From an uncultured Eubacteriales bacterium (lineage in GTDB: Bacteria > Bacillota > Clostridia > Christensenellales > CAG-138), in contig CACWJZ010000001.1 of NCBI GenBank assembly GCA_902761365.1, positions 118,877 to 182,876 on the forward strand: DNA of 64,000 nt, in the 5' to 3' direction. Below, one piece after another: positions 2,424 to 43,872 of this stretch (the stretch's first letter is position 1; each line of letters begins with the position of its first letter). The notes under the pieces were generated by a model, which saw only the letters and a program-made list of their open reading frames with translations, made no database searches and was not told where the DNA came from. The position numbers and the translations under genes were made by a program.

Positions 2424-3238
2424 GGATCAGGTACACCCAGGAACAGCATGAATTCCTGCGATCCTTTATCCCGGGGCACTCTGTCGGTGAGATCATCCGG
2501 GCGGTACGGGAACGCTTCGGAATGGAGATGTCAAAGGTGGCCGTCCAGTCATACAAGAAAAACCACAACATCCCATCCGGCACAAAAAACCACCCCCATC
2601 CAGGCAGCTCCTGGCTTTACCCCACACCGATCAAGGAATACATCCGGGAACACGTCAAAGGGGTCGGCCCAACAGAAATGGCGGAAAAGGTCAACCGGGA
2701 ATTCGGGATGGCCTACACACGCGGCCAGATGATGAACTACTACAAGCGGGCAAAACTCAAATCTGGAGTCTCGGGACGTTTTGAGAAGGGGCACCCTTCG
2801 CACAACAAAGGGAAAAAGGGCATGCCCATGCATCCGAATTCTATCAGCACCCAATTCAAGCCGGGCCACAGGCCGGCAAATAAGCTGCCAATCGGCGCGG
2901 TGGTCGAAAAGACGGACGGCTACCTATGGAGGAAAGTCGGGGAGGGCGCCCGGGATTGGAGGCAGGAGCACATCCTCATATACGAGGCAGCCCACGGCCC
3001 GGTTCCCAAAGGAGCAATCGTGACCTTCCTGGACGGCAACAGGAAAAACCTGACCTTGGACAACTTGCAGATGATCTCCAGGGGCGTCAACGGGGTCCTG
3101 AACAAAAAGGGGATGCGGACCGGCGACAAAGACCTGACCAGGGCCGCCGTCCTTCTGACCACCATCCGGGAAAAGGCCCGCGATTTTAGAAAGAACAGGG
3201 GAGAGGAAAGACATGAAAACGAAGTATGTCAAGGTTGA
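2420..3238 (+). CDS. HNH endonuclease (HNH_3-like)
   Basis: The 272-residue protein has an N-terminal DNA-binding-like half (about 1-120, helical, rich in Lys and Arg) and a C-terminal HNH_3-type nuclease core: His184 in EHILIYEAAHG, VTFLDGN with Asp205 and Asn207, and a following DNL. This is the arrangement of phage HNH proteins in which a histidine and the DGN segment build a beta-beta-alpha metal fold. The second His of the classical HH pair is Phe203, a replacement seen in part of this family. It may be a free-standing homing-type nuclease or a replication-associated nicking enzyme. The gene overlaps both neighbours. Confidence 0.85.
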   Translation: MRIRYTQEQHEFLRSFIPGHSVGEIIRAVRERFGMEMSKVAVQSYKKNHNIPSGTKNHPHPGSSWLYPTPIKEYIREHVKGVGPTEMAEKVNREFGMAYTRGQMMNYYKRAKLKSGVSGRFEKGHPSHNKGKKGMPMHPNSISTQFKPGHRPANKLPIGAVVEKTDGYLWRKVGEGARDWRQEHILIYEAAHGPVPKGAIVTFLDGNRKNLTLDNLQMISRGVNGVLNKKGMRTGDKDLTRAAVLLTTIREKARDFRKNRGEERHENEVCQG

Positions 3239-3503
3239 GACCTTGCACCGGCGGCTGGACCTGCTGCTGGGCGGAAAACAGGGGACCGGCTGCATGATCA
3301 CCGAAAGGGCGGTGCGGTCCCTGATCGATGGGACGCCGCCTGAGGATGTGGTGCCGGTTGGCCGCTCCACCGTGGTCACCACGATCCAGGCCACGCCCAC
3401 CGGCGCCGTGTTCGTCCACACTTGCAAGCTCTGCGGGGAGAGGGTCCGAAAGACAGACCCCTTCTGCTGGCATTGCGGGGCGCCGCTTTTCAAGATGGAA
3501 TGA
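3213..3503 (+). CDS. Zinc-ribbon phage protein
   Basis: The 96-residue product ends in two CxxC knuckles (CKLCG and CWHCG) spaced as a zinc ribbon at about residues 70-91. The N-terminal part is a mixed alpha/beta stretch without a known motif. The start lies inside the HNH gene and is preceded by a GAGAGGAAAG Shine-Dalgarno. Small single zinc-ribbon proteins of this kind are common in the early regions of Firmicutes phages; their function is unknown, and nucleic-acid or protein binding is inferred only from the ribbon. Confidence 0.7.
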   Translation: MKTKYVKVETLHRRLDLLLGGKQGTGCMITERAVRSLIDGTPPEDVVPVGRSTVVTTIQATPTGAVFVHTCKLCGERVRKTDPFCWHCGAPLFKME

Positions 3504-3544
3504 GCCGCCGACAGGCGACCAAATAAAGAGAGGAGAAAGACACT

Positions 3545-3988
3545 ATGACAACCCTGCCTGACATGATCCGGGATCTCCAGGCGCTTCTCGAGGAGAAAGA
3601 CGACCTGGCGGAACGGACCAAAACGAACAACGCCGCTATTGAGGCGGCAAAGGAACAGATCGCCCTTCGGATGGTGGACGACGATATGCCGGAAATCACC
3701 TACAAGGGGTACAGCTTCAAGTTGACGCCAAAGGTCAGCTACACAAAGAAGTCAGAGGCGGACATCGCCGCCGCCGGGGTGGACTTCTTCGATGTGCTCC
3801 GGGAGGAGGGCCTCGGGGACATCATCGTCGAGACGGTCAACGCCCGGACCCTGCAGTCCACCATCAACGCCCTCGTCGAAGAAGCCGGCGCCCTGCCTGA
3901 AGCCCTGGAGCCGGTGATCCGGGTATATGAATACAACGATATAACCCGGCGAAAGAAAGCAGTAGCCCGGGGAGGTAGATCAGCATGA
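3545..3988 (+). CDS. Early phage protein with N-terminal coiled coil
   Basis: The 147-residue protein begins with about 45 residues of predicted coiled coil (LQALLEEKDDLAERTKT and following), then a compact domain that ends in a basic tail. The layout resembles Gp157-like early proteins of siphoviruses, but similarity is too weak to name it. A GGAGAAAG Shine-Dalgarno precedes the ATG. The stop overlaps the small membrane gene that follows (ATGA). Confidence 0.6.
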   Translation: MTTLPDMIRDLQALLEEKDDLAERTKTNNAAIEAAKEQIALRMVDDDMPEITYKGYSFKLTPKVSYTKKSEADIAAAGVDFFDVLREEGLGDIIVETVNARTLQSTINALVEEAGALPEALEPVIRVYEYNDITRRKKAVARGGRSA

Positions 3989-4089
3989 CGATCCCACCGT
4001 TCCTGGCCGGCATCCTTTTCACGATCCTGGTCGAAGTAGCCGCCCTGATCATTTACGCCATCATCAACAACAGGAGGAACAAGCGATGA
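3985..4089 (+). CDS. 34-residue single-pass membrane protein
   Basis: The frame ATG (3985) to TGA (4089) encodes 34 residues: a short polar start, a hydrophobic segment of about 20 residues (FLAGILFTILVEVAALIIYA) and a basic tail with RRNKR. The Shine-Dalgarno GGGGAGG lies 9 bases upstream, and both ends overlap neighbouring genes by ATGA, which is strong support for translation despite the size. The charge distribution predicts the C-terminus in the cytoplasm. It sits among replication genes, so it could tether a phage protein to the membrane or act on the host envelope early in infection; this is inference. Confidence 0.65.
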   Translation: MTIPPFLAGILFTILVEVAALIIYAIINNRRNKR

Positions 4090-4547
4090 AAACCGAACAA
4101 CTGCAACTGGACACCCGATCCGATCTGGCCGTCGCCATCAGCGAGGAAGCGGCCAGGGCCATGGACAACATCCTCAGCCTGATCGAAGAAAGCCCCTTCA
4201 CGAAGCCGCCGGTCCATAACCGTCACGAAGCCTACGGCGTGGCGGCGGAGCACTACAGCAAGATCGCCGGATGCACGAAAATCATCAAAAAGGACTGCGA
4301 GGATCTCCTGACAACGCTCCCGGACCCCAGCCTCAACGCCATCGAAGCCACATCCGCCATCGTGAACAGCATCAACAAATCCGCCGTCATAATCCTCTAC
4401 GCCGCCGCCGAAATGCGGCTGACCCTTGAGGGACTATTCGCGGCGGAAAACGGCCAAGGCATAGACCCCGGTGACGATCAACCCACCATCTTCGACTTCG
4501 CCGATGCGAAGCCGCTCGAGGACACAGAAAAACAAGAGGAGGACTAA
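4086..4547 (+). CDS. Phage protein of unknown function
   Basis: The 153-residue, largely helical protein has an acidic C-terminus (FDFADAKPLEDTEKQEED). I recognise no domain. It is translationally coupled to the preceding membrane peptide (ATGA) and is followed after three bases by the ssDNA-binding-type gene, so it probably belongs to the replication module. Confidence 0.6.
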   Translation: MKTEQLQLDTRSDLAVAISEEAARAMDNILSLIEESPFTKPPVHNRHEAYGVAAEHYSKIAGCTKIIKKDCEDLLTTLPDPSLNAIEATSAIVNSINKSAVIILYAAAEMRLTLEGLFAAENGQGIDPGDDQPTIFDFADAKPLEDTEKQEED

Positions 4548-4550
4548 GCC

Positions 4551-5372
4551 ATGAAAACTGCCAACAAACCCACCACAGACCTCGCCCCCGTGGAATCCTT
4601 TATGATTGTAGACCGGTACGCCGGGCTCGATGAGGAGGCGAAAGCAGAGCTGCTCGATGAGATGAATGATTTTTCGGGGGAAAACACCCTGGTCTATAAG
4701 ACCATCAAGGTCCCTTCCGGCGAAACCCCCGTGTTCATCATTTCGGACGGAGAGGAAAGCGACAGCGCCAAAGAGATCGAGGGCGTGATCATCTTTACCC
4801 ATCGCCTGAATGGATACTGGCCCAATGCTATGGGCAGCACCCCCGATGGCGACAAGGCGCCGCTTTGCAGCAGCATGGACGGGATCACCGGCATGAACAG
4901 GGAAACCGGGGAGATCAGGGATTGCGCCACATGCCCCTATAATCAATTCGGATCTTCCCGCGACGGAGGCAAGGGCAAGGCGTGCAAGAATATGCGCCGG
5001 ATGTACCTCATCCAAAACAACGACCCTGACCTCTATATGCTTTCGGTACCGCCCACGTCGATCCGGGATATCAACAAGCAGCTGACGAAAATCCTGGGAA
5101 AAGGCATCCCGTACACCGGCATCCTGATCGGGCTAAAGCTGCAGAAAGCCGTCAATGCAAACAGGATCACTTACAACAAGGTGATCCTCGAAAACAGAGG
5201 AGAGCTGCCGCCCTCCGTTGCCGCCCAGGTCAAAGCCCTGCGGACGGAGATCAAGAGGAAGTACATGGAACAGGCAATCACCCCCGAGGATTACGCTGTC
5301 GAACAGACAACGGCCCCCGCCGATCCCGGCGCCTTCACCGACATACCCCCCGAGGAACTGCCCTTCAGTTAA
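4551..5372 (+). CDS. Probable phage ssDNA-binding protein with zinc cluster
   Basis: The 273-residue protein has a central Cys-rich segment (CSSMDG, CATCPYN, then GKACKN; about residues 107-145) that could bind zinc, and a flexible acidic C-terminal tail ending EELPFS. An acidic tail finishing in a hydrophobic tip is the hallmark of bacterial and phage single-stranded-DNA-binding proteins, which use it to recruit partners. It lies directly upstream of the primase-helicase. The body does not match canonical SSB closely, so the assignment rests on tail, position and beta-rich composition. An alternative is another primase-associated DNA-binding factor. Confidence 0.55.
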   Translation: MKTANKPTTDLAPVESFMIVDRYAGLDEEAKAELLDEMNDFSGENTLVYKTIKVPSGETPVFIISDGEESDSAKEIEGVIIFTHRLNGYWPNAMGSTPDGDKAPLCSSMDGITGMNRETGEIRDCATCPYNQFGSSRDGGKGKACKNMRRMYLIQNNDPDLYMLSVPPTSIRDINKQLTKILGKGIPYTGILIGLKLQKAVNANRITYNKVILENRGELPPSVAAQVKALRTEIKRKYMEQAITPEDYAVEQTTAPADPGAFTDIPPEELPFS

Positions 5373-5448
5373 GATGCCCGGCGACCATGGGGGCGCGGAT
5401 CTCCGTGCCCCCGCCGGATAGATCAGAGATTGAAAGGGTGGTGAGCGC

Positions 5449-8151
5449 ATGGCATTACAAGAGAAGCAGGTCGACCTGGACCGGATCGTGGACTACCGGG
5501 CAGAATATACCTCCGTCCTGGAGGGATGCAAGAGCACCGGGGACCACGAAATGGTCGCCCTGTGCCCATTCCACCAGGACAGGCAGCACAGCTTCTCGGT
5601 GGATCTTCGGACCGGGAAATGGCATTGCTTTGCAGAAAATGAGGGCGGGAACTTCGTGTCCTTTTGGGCGAAAATGCACGGATGCAGCACCGGGGACGCC
5701 TACAAGGCGATCCTGGAGAAGTATCATGTGGCCACCGCTGATGATAAGCCAAAGCCAAAGACCGGCCCCGATTCGTACACCCTGGAGGAGTACAGCTTCG
5801 AAAAGCGGCTCCCGGCGGACTTCCTCACCGGCCTGGGGATCACCACGGAAAAGGATCGGTCCGGGAAAACATTCCTCAGGACCCCATACTACCTGGAGGA
5901 CGGGAAAGAGAGCACCTACCGAAAACGGTACGCCCACAAGGAATTTCGATGGAGGCAAGGCAGCTCTGGTAAGATATGCCTGTATGGGGAGTGGCGCCTT
6001 CCACAGATCAGGGAGGTCGGCTACGCCGTCATGGTGGAGGGCGAAAGCGACACCCAAAGCCTGTGGTACATGGGCATCCCGGCGCTCGGCGTGGCCGGGG
6101 CGGATATGTTCAAGCCCGCCCAGGCCGCCCAGCTGCAGGACCTCAAGCTCTACATCCACCAGGAGCCGGACACCGGCGGGGAAACATTCGTGCGAAAGGT
6201 TCTTAACGGGCTGAAGGACGGGAACTTCATCGGCAAGGTTTACCGATGGAGCTGCGACCGGCTCGGCGTCAAGGACCCGTCGGACCTATACCTGAAGAAC
6301 GGTCGGGAAGAAGCCGCCCGAATGATCAAACAGGCGCTGCAGGGCGCTGAGGAGCTGGACCCGTACCAGGAAAACATCCCGGAGGCGATCAGCGGCGCCC
6401 CGATCAACCTGAGACAGCCCGAGGGCTGGGTCTACGGCGAAAAGGGGATCAGTCAGATCGATGAAAAGAAGTACACCCCCACCAACGTCTGCAGGACCCC
6501 GATCATCCTGACCCAGCGGCTCAAGAGCCTGGAAACAGGGGACGAGAAAATGGAGATCGCGTTCAAAAGGGACGATGCCTGGCACAAGGCGATCTTCCCC
6601 CGATCCGTCATATTCTCCAACCGGTCGATCACCCAGCTGGCGGACCTGGGCTGCACCATAACAAGCGAAAACGCGAAAGCGGTGGTCCGATTCCTGGGGG
6701 CGCTGGAGGCGGAAAACATCGATGTGATCCCGAAAGCGGACGCCGCCTCGACCTTCGGATGGCAGCCCGGGAAACGATTTATTCCCGGGCACGATCAAGG
6801 GATCACCCTGGACGTGGACCCCTCCCAGCGGGCCATGGCATCCGCCTACTGCCAAAACGGGACCCTGGACCGCTGGATCGGGCACATGATGGACCACCGG
6901 CGGCGGGATAAATTCAGGTTCATCCTGGCGGCCAGCTTTGCCGCCCCGCTCCTGCGGATCGTAAAAAAGAGGATCTTCTTCGTCTATAATTGGGGCGGCT
7001 CGAAGGGCGGAAAGACCGCCGCCCTCAAGGCGGCCCTGTCCGCCTGGGGCGACCCGGAAAGGCTCATGGTCAACTTCAACGCGACACAGGTGGGCCTGGA
7101 ACGCACGGCGGCCTTCTACTGCGATCTGCCGCTGGGCATCGATGAGCGTCAGCTGGCCGGCAATAAGCAGGATGCGCTGGAGAGGATCGTCTACATGATC
7201 GCCTCCGGCACCGGGAAGATCAGAGGCGCGAAGGGCGGCGGCCTTCAGACGACGAACCAATGGCGGACCATAGCCATCGCCACCGGCGAGGAACCGCTGA
7301 GCACCGACACCACCCAAACCGGCGTCAGCACCCGCGTCCTGGAGATCTACGGCGGCCCATTCGACAACGAACAGGACGCGGAGCTCATGCACCAACACTC
7401 CGTCGAGGATTGCGGCTGGGCTGGCCCGGCTTTCGTCGAGCGCCTGATTCAGCAGGATGAGCGCACGATCTGCGCCGCCTATGACGCCATGCAGGAATAC
7501 GTCCGGGATATAAGCGCCGGGAAGAACGGCTCCCATATATCGGGGATCGCCGCCGTTGCCCTGGCGGATGCGATGGCCGATAGCTGGATATTCGATCCAC
7601 GGAAAAGCCCCCCTGCTGCGGTTTCGGAAACGATCCGGGAATTATTGCAGCGGCTCCAGATCACCCCGGAAAGCTGGGAAAGAGCCAAGGCCATGGCCAA
7701 GTATATCCTGGTGGAGCAGGTCGAAAACAACAGCACGGACGTCAACGAAAACGCCGTCCAATTCGTCTACGATTGGGTGATCTCCAATAAAACCTACTTC
7801 AGCGCCAACGCCGTGGGGACGTGCCTGGGCATGTTGAGCAACGGGCGGGTCTATATTTTCCCGTCGATACTCAACCAGGCGCTGACAAAGGCAGGATACT
7901 CGCCCAGGAAAACGCTCAAGTATATGGCGGATCGGGGCCTGATAAGCAGCGCCACGAACAAAGAGGGAAAGAAAGTATACTCGATCATTCGATGGTTCGA
8001 GGACCGAAGCTGCCGGTTCGTGGAATTCTTCATGGACAAGCTGCAAGATCAGGAGGCAGCGCCGCCGCCCGGGCCACAGGAGGATCGGGTGGAGAGCATC
8101 ATGGATCGCCTGGAGGATCTGCCCCCGGATATGCCGCTGCCGTTTAATTGA
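5449..8151 (+). CDS. Primase-helicase: CHC2 zinc finger, TOPRIM-like, DUF927
   Basis: The 900-residue protein starts with a CHC2-type finger (Cys39, His42, Cys60), continues with a TOPRIM-like region around 195-260 (VMVEGESDTQSLW) and has a DUF927 helicase-like ATPase from about 400 to 720 with a P-loop (GGSKGGKT). This combination is typical of primase-helicases of phages and integrative elements: it would make RNA primers and unwind DNA at the fork. The fourth finger ligand, normally Cys three residues after Cys60, is Glu63. A GGGTGGTGAGC segment before the ATG can act as ribosome site. The repeat array that follows at once suggests that origin and initiator are adjacent. Confidence 0.85.
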   Translation: MALQEKQVDLDRIVDYRAEYTSVLEGCKSTGDHEMVALCPFHQDRQHSFSVDLRTGKWHCFAENEGGNFVSFWAKMHGCSTGDAYKAILEKYHVATADDKPKPKTGPDSYTLEEYSFEKRLPADFLTGLGITTEKDRSGKTFLRTPYYLEDGKESTYRKRYAHKEFRWRQGSSGKICLYGEWRLPQIREVGYAVMVEGESDTQSLWYMGIPALGVAGADMFKPAQAAQLQDLKLYIHQEPDTGGETFVRKVLNGLKDGNFIGKVYRWSCDRLGVKDPSDLYLKNGREEAARMIKQALQGAEELDPYQENIPEAISGAPINLRQPEGWVYGEKGISQIDEKKYTPTNVCRTPIILTQRLKSLETGDEKMEIAFKRDDAWHKAIFPRSVIFSNRSITQLADLGCTITSENAKAVVRFLGALEAENIDVIPKADAASTFGWQPGKRFIPGHDQGITLDVDPSQRAMASAYCQNGTLDRWIGHMMDHRRRDKFRFILAASFAAPLLRIVKKRIFFVYNWGGSKGGKTAALKAALSAWGDPERLMVNFNATQVGLERTAAFYCDLPLGIDERQLAGNKQDALERIVYMIASGTGKIRGAKGGGLQTTNQWRTIAIATGEEPLSTDTTQTGVSTRVLEIYGGPFDNEQDAELMHQHSVEDCGWAGPAFVERLIQQDERTICAAYDAMQEYVRDISAGKNGSHISGIAAVALADAMADSWIFDPRKSPPAAVSETIRELLQRLQITPESWERAKAMAKYILVEQVENNSTDVNENAVQFVYDWVISNKTYFSANAVGTCLGMLSNGRVYIFPSILNQALTKAGYSPRKTLKYMADRGLISSATNKEGKKVYSIIRWFEDRSCRFVEFFMDKLQDQEAAPPPGPQEDRVESIMDRLEDLPPDMPLPFN

Positions 8152-37026: not shown

Positions 37027-38142
37027 ATGGGAAACTTTGACATCGCAGATCTGGCGCTGCAGGCGGTGGCGCCGGGCAATAAGCTGCTCTATGACGACAA
37101 GGGGCTGCCCTCCGTCATGGTTTTCATCCCCAAATTCAAGCTGAGCGATGTGCTGACAGACGGCCCTGATGCCTACCACCCCGCCTTCATCATCAACGGC
37201 CAGGTGGTCGACGGCATCTGGATCAGCAAGTATCAGAATGTCGTGGAGAACGGCCGGGCGTACTCGCTCCCCGGCAAGGACCCCGCGAGCAATATTACCT
37301 GGGACACCGCCCGTGGCTACTGTGAAGCGAAAGGCGCCGGCTGGCACATGATGACAAAAGCCGAGTGGGGCATGATCGCCCTGTGGTGCAAGAAGCACGG
37401 TATCTTCCCCAAGGGGAACAATAACTACGGCAAGGATAGCACCGAGAGCGCCTACACCGCCATCCCCGCCACCTACGGCACCGGGGCGGACGCCGGGAAG
37501 ATCTTCCACGTCCTGACTGGCACCGGTCCCCTAACCTGGAGCCATGACGGCACCATGAAGGGCATCTGGGATCTCAACGGCAACGTGTCTGAGTGGGAGG
37601 GCGGCTTCCGCACCGTGTACGGTGAGCTGCAGTTCCTGGTCAATAACAACGGCGCCGACAAGAGCCACAGCCAGGCTGCCAATTCGGATCAGTGGAAGGC
37701 CCTGGACGCCACCACGGGTGAGTTTATCACCCCCAACGGTTCCGGCACCACCACGAACTCCGTGAAGGTTATCGCCGCATCCAGCAAGCCCAAATATGCG
37801 ATCACCATTGACCGCAGCGAGGGCAACACTGAAGAAAGCGAAAACGTGAACAGCGGCATCCAGGACATCACCTGCAGCGCCGATATCGCCGATGCGGCGA
37901 AGTACGTCCTGCGGGCATTCGGACTTCTGCCGGAGGCGGGAGCTGTTGCGGCTGATTACGGCGACGGGGACAGGTTGTATTTTAACAACGTGGCGGCAGA
38001 GCGCCTGGTCGTCGGCGGCGGTGGCTATAACGGCGCCGCCTTCGCCGGGGTGTTCTGCAGCGGCGGCAGCACCAGCACCCGCTCGTACTCGCACACCAAC
38101 TTCGGCTTCCGCTCCGCTTTTGCCGAATTGCCAACTGCCTAA
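37027..38142 (+). CDS. DGR target: FGE/C-type-lectin-like tail-tip protein
   Basis: The 371-residue protein has a formylglycine-generating-enzyme-like C-type lectin fold: WDTARGYCEAKGAGWHMMTKAEWGMIA at about 97-123, GNVSEWEGGF near 189-198, and a C-terminal GFRSAF ending. Residues 325-364 are encoded by the variable repeat. Fifteen codons there differ from the template, all through template adenines, including residues 329, 333, 336-339, 344, 346, 348-350, 354-356 and 359. This fold tolerates such diversity in BPP-1 Mtd and Treponema TvpA. It is probably the receptor-binding tip of the tail fibre. TAAGAGGAGGAACCGC precedes the start. Confidence 0.92.
   Translation: MGNFDIADLALQAVAPGNKLLYDDKGLPSVMVFIPKFKLSDVLTDGPDAYHPAFIINGQVVDGIWISKYQNVVENGRAYSLPGKDPASNITWDTARGYCEAKGAGWHMMTKAEWGMIALWCKKHGIFPKGNNNYGKDSTESAYTAIPATYGTGADAGKIFHVLTGTGPLTWSHDGTMKGIWDLNGNVSEWEGGFRTVYGELQFLVNNNGADKSHSQAANSDQWKALDATTGEFITPNGSGTTTNSVKVIAASSKPKYAITIDRSEGNTEESENVNSGIQDITCSADIADAAKYVLRAFGLLPEAGAVAADYGDGDRLYFNNVAAERLVVGGGGYNGAAFAGVFCSGGSTSTRSYSHTNFGFRSAFAELPTA
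38000..38118 (+). repeat. DGR variable repeat (VR)
   Basis: These 119 bases at the 3' end of the target gene align without gaps to the template repeat at 38608-38726. Of 34 template adenines, 20 are changed in the variable repeat (to G, T or C); none of the 85 other template positions is changed. The shared 3' end, GGCTTCCGCTCCGCT, is the expected site where mutagenic homing starts. Confidence 0.97.
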
Positions 38143-38156
38143 CCTGGCAGCCTGAA

Positions 38157-38176
38157 AGGGGCGCGGTAGCGCCCCT
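38157..38176. promoter_or_regulatory. DGR hairpin/cruciform downstream of VR
   Basis: AGGGGCGC, GGTA, GCGCCCCT form a perfect 8-bp stem with a 4-base loop 38 bases after the variable repeat. In Bordetella phage BPP-1 a hairpin of 8-bp stem and 4-base loop downstream of the repeat is needed for efficient target recognition. A GRNA-type loop is also found there, which GGTA fits. It could also weakly end transcription, but there is no T-run. Confidence 0.8.
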
Positions 38177-38202
38177 CTGAAAATGGATGAAAGGAAAGCA
38201 CC

Positions 38203-38583
38203 GTGCAGGAACGAGAGAATGACTATATGAGGGAGACCGACGGATGGGAGCCGTCCGATTCCATTCTGCAAAAAAAGATCTGCAGGATGGTCGAGGATAC
38301 ATACCCATACCTCAAAAACTTCCCCAAGGCTGAACGCCATGACCTGACAGCAGAAATCAAACGCCTGCAGTACAGCATGGTGGAGTTGACCGTCGAGGTG
38401 GACAATCACCATCGAAAGACAGCCCTGGAGAAGCTGGACACCCAAAACAAGCAGCTCAAGAAACTGGTGCGGCTTGCCTTCCGTTTGCGGTTCCTGGCCC
38501 CGAAATCCTACGAGCGATGGTCCGCCCTTCTCAAAGAGATCGGGCAGATCATCGGCGGACGGATAAACGAAAAGGCCAGGTAG
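38203..38583 (+). CDS. avd: Accessory variability determinant (Avd)-like protein
   Basis: The 126-residue, all-helical and basic protein has the size and composition of Avd four-helix-bundle proteins, which form pentamers that bind the reverse transcriptase and the template RNA. Segments such as LTAEIKRLQYSMVELTVEV and KKLVRLAFRLRFLAPKSYERWSA-type helices fit. It lies between the variable and template repeats, the BPP-1 order. GTG 38203 is chosen because AAAGGAAAG lies at good distance; ATG 38227 is an alternative. Confidence 0.88.
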   Translation: MQERENDYMRETDGWEPSDSILQKKICRMVEDTYPYLKNFPKAERHDLTAEIKRLQYSMVELTVEVDNHHRKTALEKLDTQNKQLKKLVRLAFRLRFLAPKSYERWSALLKEIGQIIGGRINEKAR

Positions 38584-38607
38584 CCGCTTCATTCGGGAGA
38601 TCGATAC

Positions 38608-38726
38608 AGCGCCTGGTCAACGGCGGCGGTAACTATAACAACACCACCAACGCCGGGGTGTTCTACAGCAACGGCAACAACAACACCCGCTCGAACACGA
38701 ACACCAACATCGGCTTCCGCTCCGCT
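38608..38726 (+). repeat. DGR template repeat (TR)
   Basis: The template is rich in AAC codons in the reading phase of the target (12 of 36 codons), the typical design that lets adenine mutagenesis yield many residues but no stop codon. It lies between the Avd gene and the reverse transcriptase gene and is the invariant donor. It is followed by 209 bases of spacer before the reverse transcriptase start, which in BPP-1-like systems is part of the RNA needed for priming. Confidence 0.97.
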
Positions 38727-38935
38727 CTGCCTCGAACAAAGGGCAAGGTGACCGGCGCCCACGGGTCCCGGTACAGACGGCCGCAATGCGGCCAATTCCA
38801 AGAGGCAAAGGATCGATCCCCCGTGCTTCAAAAAAGCAGAAAAGGTAAACAGCGGCGGCAGGTTGAACGGACCACATCCGGGCGGCCTCGCAAGTCTGGG
38901 TTCAGAAAGCCCCGAACCGCCGCGATCCCCGGTCT

Positions 38936-40057
38936 ATGATTCGGAACATATATCAGCAGCTAACGTCCTACTCGGCGCTGCTCCAGGCGGAGCATGACGT
39001 GACAGCCGGCAAGGGAGAAAAGAGGAGCACCCTCCTGTTCGAGCGCAACCTTGAGGACAACCTCCTTCAGATCAGCGCCGATCTTCGAAACGGCATCATC
39101 CCGAAAGTCAAGTACAACAGCTTCTACGTTTATATTCCGAAAACCAGGAAGGTCATCTACATAGACCTTCCGAACAAGATCATCCAGCGGTCACTTTATA
39201 ACGAGATCAACCCCAGGCTCAACAAGGGGTTCATTGAGGACACCTACGCATGCATCCCCGGGAAGGGGCAGCTGGCGGCGATGAACAGGGTGGCCAGCTG
39301 GATGAGGAATACCAGGATCAACAGCCCAGGAGAGTGGTACTACTTCAAATTCGACGTGGCCAAATTCTTTTACCGGATAGACCACGGCATTCTGATGGAC
39401 CTGCTCAAGAGCAAGATCGCGGACCCACAGGCCATAGATCTGCTGGAGTATTACATCTGCAACACCGGCGCCAGTTTCGGCCTTCCACTCACCGACAATC
39501 AGGAGGAGGCCACTGAGCCTGACGCTTTGAGCGCCCTGGGCATCCCCATCGGCGGCGGCTTGAGCCATACCCTCGGCAACCTTTACCTGGACCCGCTGGA
39601 TCAATTCATCAAGCGGGAGCTACGGGTCAGGAGATACGGCCGGTACATGGATGACGGGATACTGATGGACACCGACAAGCGGCGCCTGATCGAAACCGCA
39701 AAGAGAGCCGAGGACTTCCTGCATGAGCGCCTCCATTTGGAATGGAACCGCAAGACGGCGCTCCGGCCGGCCAGGTGCGGCGTGGAGTGGGTCGGGTGCG
39801 TGATCTACGATGACCACGTCACCCTCCGAAAGAGCACCACGCTCCGCATGAAGCGGCGGCTGGCGGAGGTCGAACAGGAGTACAATGCCGGGCTGATCAC
39901 CCTGGAAAAGGCAAAGCAGACCGTGGCATCATACCGGGCCATGTTGAAGCACGTGGACATGGACAACTACGAGGACAAGCTCTGGCGGGATTTCGTCCTG
40001 ACCAGGGGCGACATCCAGGAAGCAAAGCAACGGGGGAAAGAACTATGCTGGAATTGA
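38936..40057 (+). CDS. DGR reverse transcriptase
   Basis: The 373-residue protein has reverse transcriptase motifs in order: domain A FKFDVAKFF with Asp140, IPIGGGLSH at 203-211 and the catalytic YMDD at 237-240. The IGxxxS(Q) motif separates DGR enzymes from group II and retron enzymes; here the Gln is His211. It would copy the template RNA with errors opposite adenine and replace the variable repeat. No Shine-Dalgarno is evident; the ATG overlaps the stop of a frame that is open across the template (38517-38939), so coupled or low translation is likely. Confidence 0.95.
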   Translation: MIRNIYQQLTSYSALLQAEHDVTAGKGEKRSTLLFERNLEDNLLQISADLRNGIIPKVKYNSFYVYIPKTRKVIYIDLPNKIIQRSLYNEINPRLNKGFIEDTYACIPGKGQLAAMNRVASWMRNTRINSPGEWYYFKFDVAKFFYRIDHGILMDLLKSKIADPQAIDLLEYYICNTGASFGLPLTDNQEEATEPDALSALGIPIGGGLSHTLGNLYLDPLDQFIKRELRVRRYGRYMDDGILMDTDKRRLIETAKRAEDFLHERLHLEWNRKTALRPARCGVEWVGCVIYDDHVTLRKSTTLRMKRRLAEVEQEYNAGLITLEKAKQTVASYRAMLKHVDMDNYEDKLWRDFVLTRGDIQEAKQRGKELCWN

Positions 40058-40263
40058 CGGAAAGGTTGATAGAGATCGCCGATCAGCTCCTCACCATCAC
40101 CAAAGAGCAGAACCGCATCCTGCAGCAGCTGGAGGCAGCCAGGTACGGGGACGCCCTCGTGGAGATCGAAAGCAGCCTCGCCGGAATTCGGGAACGGGCA
40201 GACGGCCCGTTACATCTGAAGGAAGGAGGGACAGAGCAAAGAGATGGAAGGAATGACAGCTGA
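40045..40263 (+). CDS. Small coiled-coil protein after the retroelement
   Basis: The 72-residue protein overlaps the reverse transcriptase end and overlaps the next gene. Residues 1-50 form a predicted coiled coil (LIEIADQLLTITKEQNRILQQLEAA). It has no known domain. It may belong to the lysis block that follows or be an assembly factor; this is undecided. Confidence 0.55.
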   Translation: MLELTERLIEIADQLLTITKEQNRILQQLEAARYGDALVEIESSLAGIRERADGPLHLKEGGTEQRDGRNDS

Positions 40264-43796: not shown

Positions 43797-43872
43797 TGGT
43801 GGAGCATAGGAGAGTCGAACTCCTGGCCTCCACAATGCCATTGTGGCGCGCTACCAACTGCGCTAATGCCCC
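43797..43872 (-). tRNA. tRNA-Ala (GGC)
   Basis: On the minus strand a 76-base cloverleaf runs from GGGGCAT to ATGCTCC-A-CCA, with TTCGACTC in the T arm. The anticodon stem CACAA/TTGTG encloses GGC. CCA is encoded. The 3' end faces the prophage, so it is the likely integration site. Confidence 0.97.

Follow-up and report, generated by a model that had tools for sequence, protein, structure and literature searches.

Here we describe a diversity-generating retroelement (DGR) in a 64,000-nucleotide stretch of contig CACWJZ010000001.1 from an uncultured Eubacteriales bacterium (hereafter referred to as the window), and the clade of reverse transcriptases (RTs) to which its enzyme belongs. The DGR is complete, has the gene order of the BPP-1 element and lies inside a contractile-tailed prophage, and its variable repeat (VR) differs from its template repeat (TR) at adenines only. 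Motif 4 of its RT reads IGGGLSH, without the SQ signature, a point absent from the sequence-only reading of this DNA that we followed up. The motif is shared by a clade of RTs, in other members of which adenine-only VR change is ongoing. We hold with high confidence that the DGR of the window is functional and belongs to a temperate phage with a contractile tail, and that its RT clade went through one switch from an SQ-type motif to [IV]GGG[LM]SH, which it has kept since, with activity and adenine choice not measurably reduced.

The TR and VR of the window align without gaps over 119 bases and differ at 20 of them. All of these differences fall on template adenines, with 20 of the 34 adenines altered as compared with 0 of the 85 other bases (hypergeometric p = 5.7e-14). 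The differences affect 15 VR codons and alter the encoded amino acid in all 15, and six more A-containing TR codons are left unaltered. Our recount thus reproduced the base and codon counts of the sequence-only reading, and a gapless repeat finder blind to adenines returned the identical pair. None of the 21 A-containing TR codons can become a stop codon by a change of A. With respect to the initiation of mutagenic homing sites (IMH and IMH*), the repeats share an A-free end of 17 bases, after which homology stops, and no IMH/IMH* difference was seen. Plain duplication followed by drift, or DNA or RNA editing, without a DGR, is hardly credible as the source of this pattern: besides the adenine restriction, the altered bases go to G (12), T (6) and C (2), which a single deaminase would not yield, and the element also has its Avd, RT, hairpin and structured spacer. 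The earlier claim that the element was recently active is well supported, because the comparison of TR with VR holds no non-adenine difference, none having built up between them. The window copy is probably active at present as well; a second sighting of its prophage was not found among the relatives gathered.

The sequence (I/V/L)GxxxSQ in RT motif 4 is the DGR signature, present in 90% of the 155 elements of a 2012 survey (PMC3521204). The endings SP, SH, NQ, PA, AQ and VQ were recorded there in 15 of the 155; sequencing errors or recent inactivation were not excluded for them, and the SH elements were still counted as DGRs (PMC3521204). We gathered relatives of the window element by target, by RT and by RT profile (the best 80 of 158 profile matches were kept), and refer to their loci by L numbers. 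The resulting set of 95 RTs, gathered around the window query, consists of sequences of at least 300 amino acids that are distinct in their last 330 residues. The motif [IV]GGG[LM]SH occurred in 21 of them, a number that includes the window RT and near-copies such as L061/L063 and L074/L075, and SH in none of the 74 others, one of which (L043) is group II-like. In a tree computed without the motif columns, the 21 SH-type RTs formed one side of a branch with a Shimodaira-Hasegawa-like approximate likelihood ratio support (SH-aLRT) of 100, the tree being a quick search without bootstrap whose deeper forks are partly open. None of 500 shuffled label sets was as clustered (shuffled mean, 19.3 changes). 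A YxDD-type core (RYMDD, RFMDD, RCMDD or RYADD; RYMDD in the window) was found in all 21, the RT identity to the window being as low as 44-50%. A structural model of the window RT, with a predicted local distance difference test score (pLDDT) of 88.5, had the BPP-1 DGR RT (8ub7) as its best match (template modelling (TM) scores, 0.76/0.86). In the open-access literature searched, we found no account of a GGGLSH-type motif as a working clade, and the strings GGGLSH, IGGGLSH and GGGMSH occurred in no paper.

To evaluate the activity of the clade quantitatively, we scored the TR/VR pairs beside its RTs; 16 of the 21 were scorable, the pairs of L054, L063, L070, L071 and L075 being missing or scoring below 75. 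Adenines were altered at 227 of 445 positions and other bases at 8 of 1,403 in these 16 pairs, and at 743 of 1,432 and 42 of 4,501 positions, respectively, in a further 51 pairs with distinct TRs. The pair script penalises non-A mismatches and favours adenine-only stretches, so that the totals present a somewhat favourable picture. Eleven of the 16 clade pairs were free of non-A change, and a recount of the gapless pairs returned by the adenine-blind finder (window, L010, L015 and L016) gave zero non-A changes. The strongest test is the comparison of L068 with L069, because it is free of the script's bias. These two sightings of the same phage, from two metagenomes, have identical TRs and 7 differences in 5,900 bases. 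Each of the 7 sits at a template adenine, inside the 40 bases of VR that were compared. Between L061 and L063 there are 14 differences in 4,114 bases; five lie within 37 VR bases, each at a template adenine, and nine elsewhere. Likewise, all seven VR differences between L074 and L075 (96.6% identical overall) are at template adenines. The sequence-only reading had proposed that related prophages be compared for identical templates with differing variable repeats, and such cases were indeed found among clade members.

These results indicate that the GGGLSH clade works, VR change at adenines being ongoing in members other than the window; such change between sightings is indirect evidence of RT-dependent retrohoming. 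Because a clade without SQ alters its VRs almost exclusively at adenines, the SQ glutamine appears, from these comparisons of sequences, to be dispensable for both activity and adenine choice. SQ is a hallmark of DGRs rather than a strict requirement, and the window's filing as a DGR stands on function and RT family. It is very unlikely that the SH motif is instead a sign of damage to the RT or of its recent inactivation, with the adenine-only differences left over from earlier activity. Inactivation was raised in the survey for the rare endings, SH among them (PMC3521204), and loss does occur in the lineage, since in L005, L006 and L018 the VR persists whereas avd, TR and the greater part of the RT are gone. 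However, the motif is fixed across the clade over the full span of RT identity, the YxDD core has been kept throughout, and VR differences between two sightings of a clade member fall on adenines only, which contradicts inactivation for the clade.

The hairpin of phage DGRs, also termed a cruciform, has been described as a GC-rich stem of 7-10 bp with a 4-nt loop of the consensus GRNA, at a flexible distance from the VR (4 to 34 bp in published examples; PMC3240598). The GGTA loop in the window matches GRNA, and the hairpin starts 38 bases behind the VR. In 12 of the 16 clade pairs, the VR is followed by a hairpin with a perfectly paired 8-13 bp stem and a GNNA loop of 4 nt (GRNA in 10), and the stem sequences differ among clade members; the stem of L060 includes a G-T. 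In a consensus fold of the spacer between TR and RT from seven clade members, 28 of 50 pairs were altered on both sides, as compared with a shuffled mean of 14.1 and 6 to 13 in slid controls, the structure being derived from the same alignment that was used to count covariation. None of 500 shuffles reached 28 pairs. The covarying helices span 38690-38960 of the window and the corresponding DNA of L010, L012, L015, L016, L054 and L059. An Rfam search of 37900-39100 gave zero matches. Hairpin and spacer RNA appear to be conserved as structures in the clade.

Several observations weigh against a functional DGR and an unimpaired clade. In addition to the bias of the pair script, 5 of the 16 clade pairs carry one to three non-A differences (L012, 3; L060, 2; L073, L065 and L076, 1 each). 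In L016 and L059, the GATA loop is closed by a stem of just 3-4 bp, and no clear hairpin was seen in L065. Three same-phage comparisons (L010/L011, L012/L014 and L061/L062) showed no VR difference; therefore, retrohoming is not constant. Finally, among 12 genomes of the genus, the RT (E 1e-20) and the sheath (E 1e-30) were found in the window genome alone and in none of the 11 others.

A shifted error spectrum of the clade is not claimed. A to C made up a smaller share of changes in the clade (13.7%) than in the 51 other pairs (25.4%; Mann-Whitney p = 0.003), but no difference was seen from the 13 nearest SQ relatives (18.5%, p = 0.57). Separately, the VR is one AAC codon shorter than the TR in L012 (1045-1160), L060 (3079 onward) and L017 (4269-4384). 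The missing codon belongs to an (AAC)3 run or adjoins one (in L012, this is one possible placement of the gap), as would be expected if the RT slips on AAC repeats; among TRs bearing (AAC)3, the loss was found in 2 of 7 in the clade and 0 of 12 others. We dropped AAC codon loss by slippage as a novelty, as insertions and deletions in AAC repeats are already in print, with earlier work cited (PMC12875486).

The anatomy of the cassette is summarized in Table 1. The sequence-only reading had described a complete DGR in BPP-1 order within a contractile-tailed prophage, and this was confirmed in full: the target gene with VR, the hairpin, bAvd, TR, spacer and RT follow one another, and the target, Avd and RT genes are open frames.

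Table 1. Features of the DGR cassette and the candidate right attachment (att) site in the window
Feature	Position	Strand	Basis or remark
DGR target gene, 371 aa (amino acids), TaqVP-like (formylglycine-generating enzyme (FGE)-sulfatase / C-type lectin type), C-terminal variable end	37027..38142	+	Open frame; PF03781 E 6.9e-6; phrog_2889 E 8e-111; 5vf4 E 1.1e-47
VR	38000..38118	+	Final 17 bases as in TR, without template A
Hairpin/cruciform 3′ of VR: stem AGGGGCGC, loop GGTA, stem GCGCCCCT	38157..38176	+	8-bp GC-rich stem
avd (bAvd), 126 aa, GTG start	38203..38583	+	PF22296 E 1.2e-22; phrog_3206 (Avd protein of DGR) E 1.4e-25
TR	38608..38726	+	34 A; in VR frame, 21 A-containing codons, 12 of them AAC
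TR-RT spacer, predicted structured part of DGR RNA	38727..38935	+	Consensus fold, covariation in 7 clade members
Reverse transcriptase, 373 aa, intact	38936..40057	+	PF00078; phrog_1423 E 9.3e-104; model closest to 8ub7
RT motif 4 IGGGLSH, residues 205-211	39548..39568	+	Site of (I/V/L)GxxxSQ in DGR RTs
RT catalytic YMDD, residues 237-240, intact	39644..39655	+	Sequence
Candidate right att site, 3′ end of tRNA-Ala (43797-43872, minus strand)	43800..43816	.	17-bp repeat

The genes around the DGR encode terminase, portal, sheath, tape measure, baseplate J, a tail collar fibre and a holin-like protein, the tail sheath (phrog_23, E 1.1e-68) marking the tail as contractile. The left copy of the 17-bp candidate att repeat lies outside the window, at 115117-115133 of contig C1, and adjoins the integrase gene, which encodes a large serine recombinase with resolvase, recombinase and zinc-ribbon domains; the candidate pair bounds an element of 47,576 bp. 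A second TR/VR target or a second RT was not found in the window's own assembly (116 contigs, 68.97% completeness), in which the TR query matched two places and the RT query one gene.

An open reading frame (ORF) of 72 aa at 40045-40263 overlaps the end of the RT gene; it gave zero Pfam or PHROGs matches, and a counterpart 3′ of the RT in L005/L006 is 69% identical. In L006 (4760-6340; the same DNA in L005 and L018), the deletion removed avd, TR and RT residues 1-263, so that VR and hairpin abut the RT remnant. These loci have 88% DNA identity downstream to the window phage region, and further deletions join portal, baseplate J and target. The L006 region, present in two metagenome contigs, is a DGR fossil whose VR is frozen. 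In addition, a genome from the same class carries a DGR-type RT (L045 and L047; G490:C2:41281-42297) whose match is split into two pieces, one of them interrupted by a TAG stop; in the TR/VR pair beside this RT, changes are still mostly at adenine.

The target protein is homologous over residues 11-244 of 371 to TaqVP (5vf4, E 1.1e-47) in a PDB sequence search. TaqVP is the variable protein of the Thermus aquaticus prophage DGR and has a C-type lectin fold (PMC6328139). The earlier description of the target as lectin-like is upheld by this homology for the matched part; the variable end itself lies outside the match. We used the sequence match alone: the AlphaFold2 model of the target was too poor to use (mean pLDDT 37.9, 7 alignment rows), and its Foldseek match to TaqVP (TM 0.25) was set aside.

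It is rather unlikely, although by no means negligible, that the element works and yet diversifies binding to mucus, polysaccharide or other cells instead of a host receptor. The body of the target is of the FGE-sulfatase/lectin type, a fold serving many ligands, and other DGR phage targets are relatives of a capsid-decoration protein with a suggested role in adherence to mucus (PMC11792537). Against this, the target gene comes directly after the genes for baseplate J, a baseplate/tail protein and a tail collar-fibre protein (and one small ORF), the usual position of receptor-binding genes. The Mtd protein of BPP-1 is a precedent for a receptor-binding protein varied by a DGR. Gene order and this precedent suggest that the target is a tail-tip, receptor-binding protein whose variation would switch host receptors, as the sequence-only reading had proposed.

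A natural contrast that also favours a working clade is offered by the 41 loci found via the constant part of the target, which carry a GGGLSH RT in 6 cases (four phages) and an SQ RT in 20; in the rest, the RT is cut by the contig end (3), is a remnant (2) or has no match in the fetched DNA (10). In L146 and L147 (both 3001-6873), a target 64% identical to the window's is accompanied by a VGSLISQ RT of 35.5% identity, with 0 and 1 non-A changes, respectively, and the adenine pattern of the window. Comparison of these loci with the window points to an exchange of targets and RTs among cassettes.

The window is a new member of a known system. It shares with the BPP-1 DGR (Mtd, Avd, bRT; structures 8ub7-8ubf) the order target-VR, hairpin, avd, TR and RT, adenine-only change, the RT fold, the GRNA loop (PMC3240598) and a structured spacer behind the TR (PMC12875486), and differs from it in motif 4 (IGSLTSQ in 8ub7) and in its target, which is related by sequence to TaqVP and gave zero Mtd matches in the PDB sequence search. 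The DGR of Faecalibacterium phage FP_Lagaffe (MG711461), a tail phage of gut Bacillota, has the same gene order and an adenine-only pair, and its target and Avd resemble those of the window (67% DNA identity over 22% of the query); its RT, in contrast, is of the SQ type and 33% identical to the window's. A second variable region is reported for Lagaffe_CP (PMC11792537), whereas none was found in the window genome. The Thermus aquaticus element has a homologous target and avd followed by TR (PMC6328139), but the match ends before the variable end and the host group is another. Bacillus phage BalMu-1 (KP063903) gave the top RT match in 50,697 phage records (39% identity) and shares the TR/VR layout, but its motif is IGNLTSQ. 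The DiGReF variants, with SH among their endings, are described in the survey as possible errors or recent inactivation, with no clade named in that account (PMC3521204). The RT clade described here is a variant with an altered signature motif that has retained the defining activity.

By analogy with the biochemistry of BPP-1, the TR-spacer RNA of the window DGR would be copied into cDNA by the RT with Avd, the RT would misinsert opposite template adenines, and the cDNA would replace the VR beside the hairpin; the C-terminal variable face of the TaqVP-like protein would thereby be altered, with TR persisting as the master copy. The cause of adenine-only error in DGR enzymes is an open question, for which the SQ glutamine was proposed in 2012 and the SQ motif has been a prime suspect (PMC3521204). 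In the present clade, [IV]GGG[LM]SH has taken the place of (I/V/L)GxxxSQ, yet mutation is still confined almost entirely to adenines, with a substitution spectrum indistinguishable from that of the clade's nearest SQ relatives; the SQ glutamine is then probably not the determinant of adenine infidelity. If so, either the histidine and the GGG turn rebuild the same template grip, or selectivity sits elsewhere in the complex. Searches that demand SQ will overlook working DGRs, and a natural adenine-mutating clade that lacks SQ narrows where the determinant can sit and offers a ready-made experiment.

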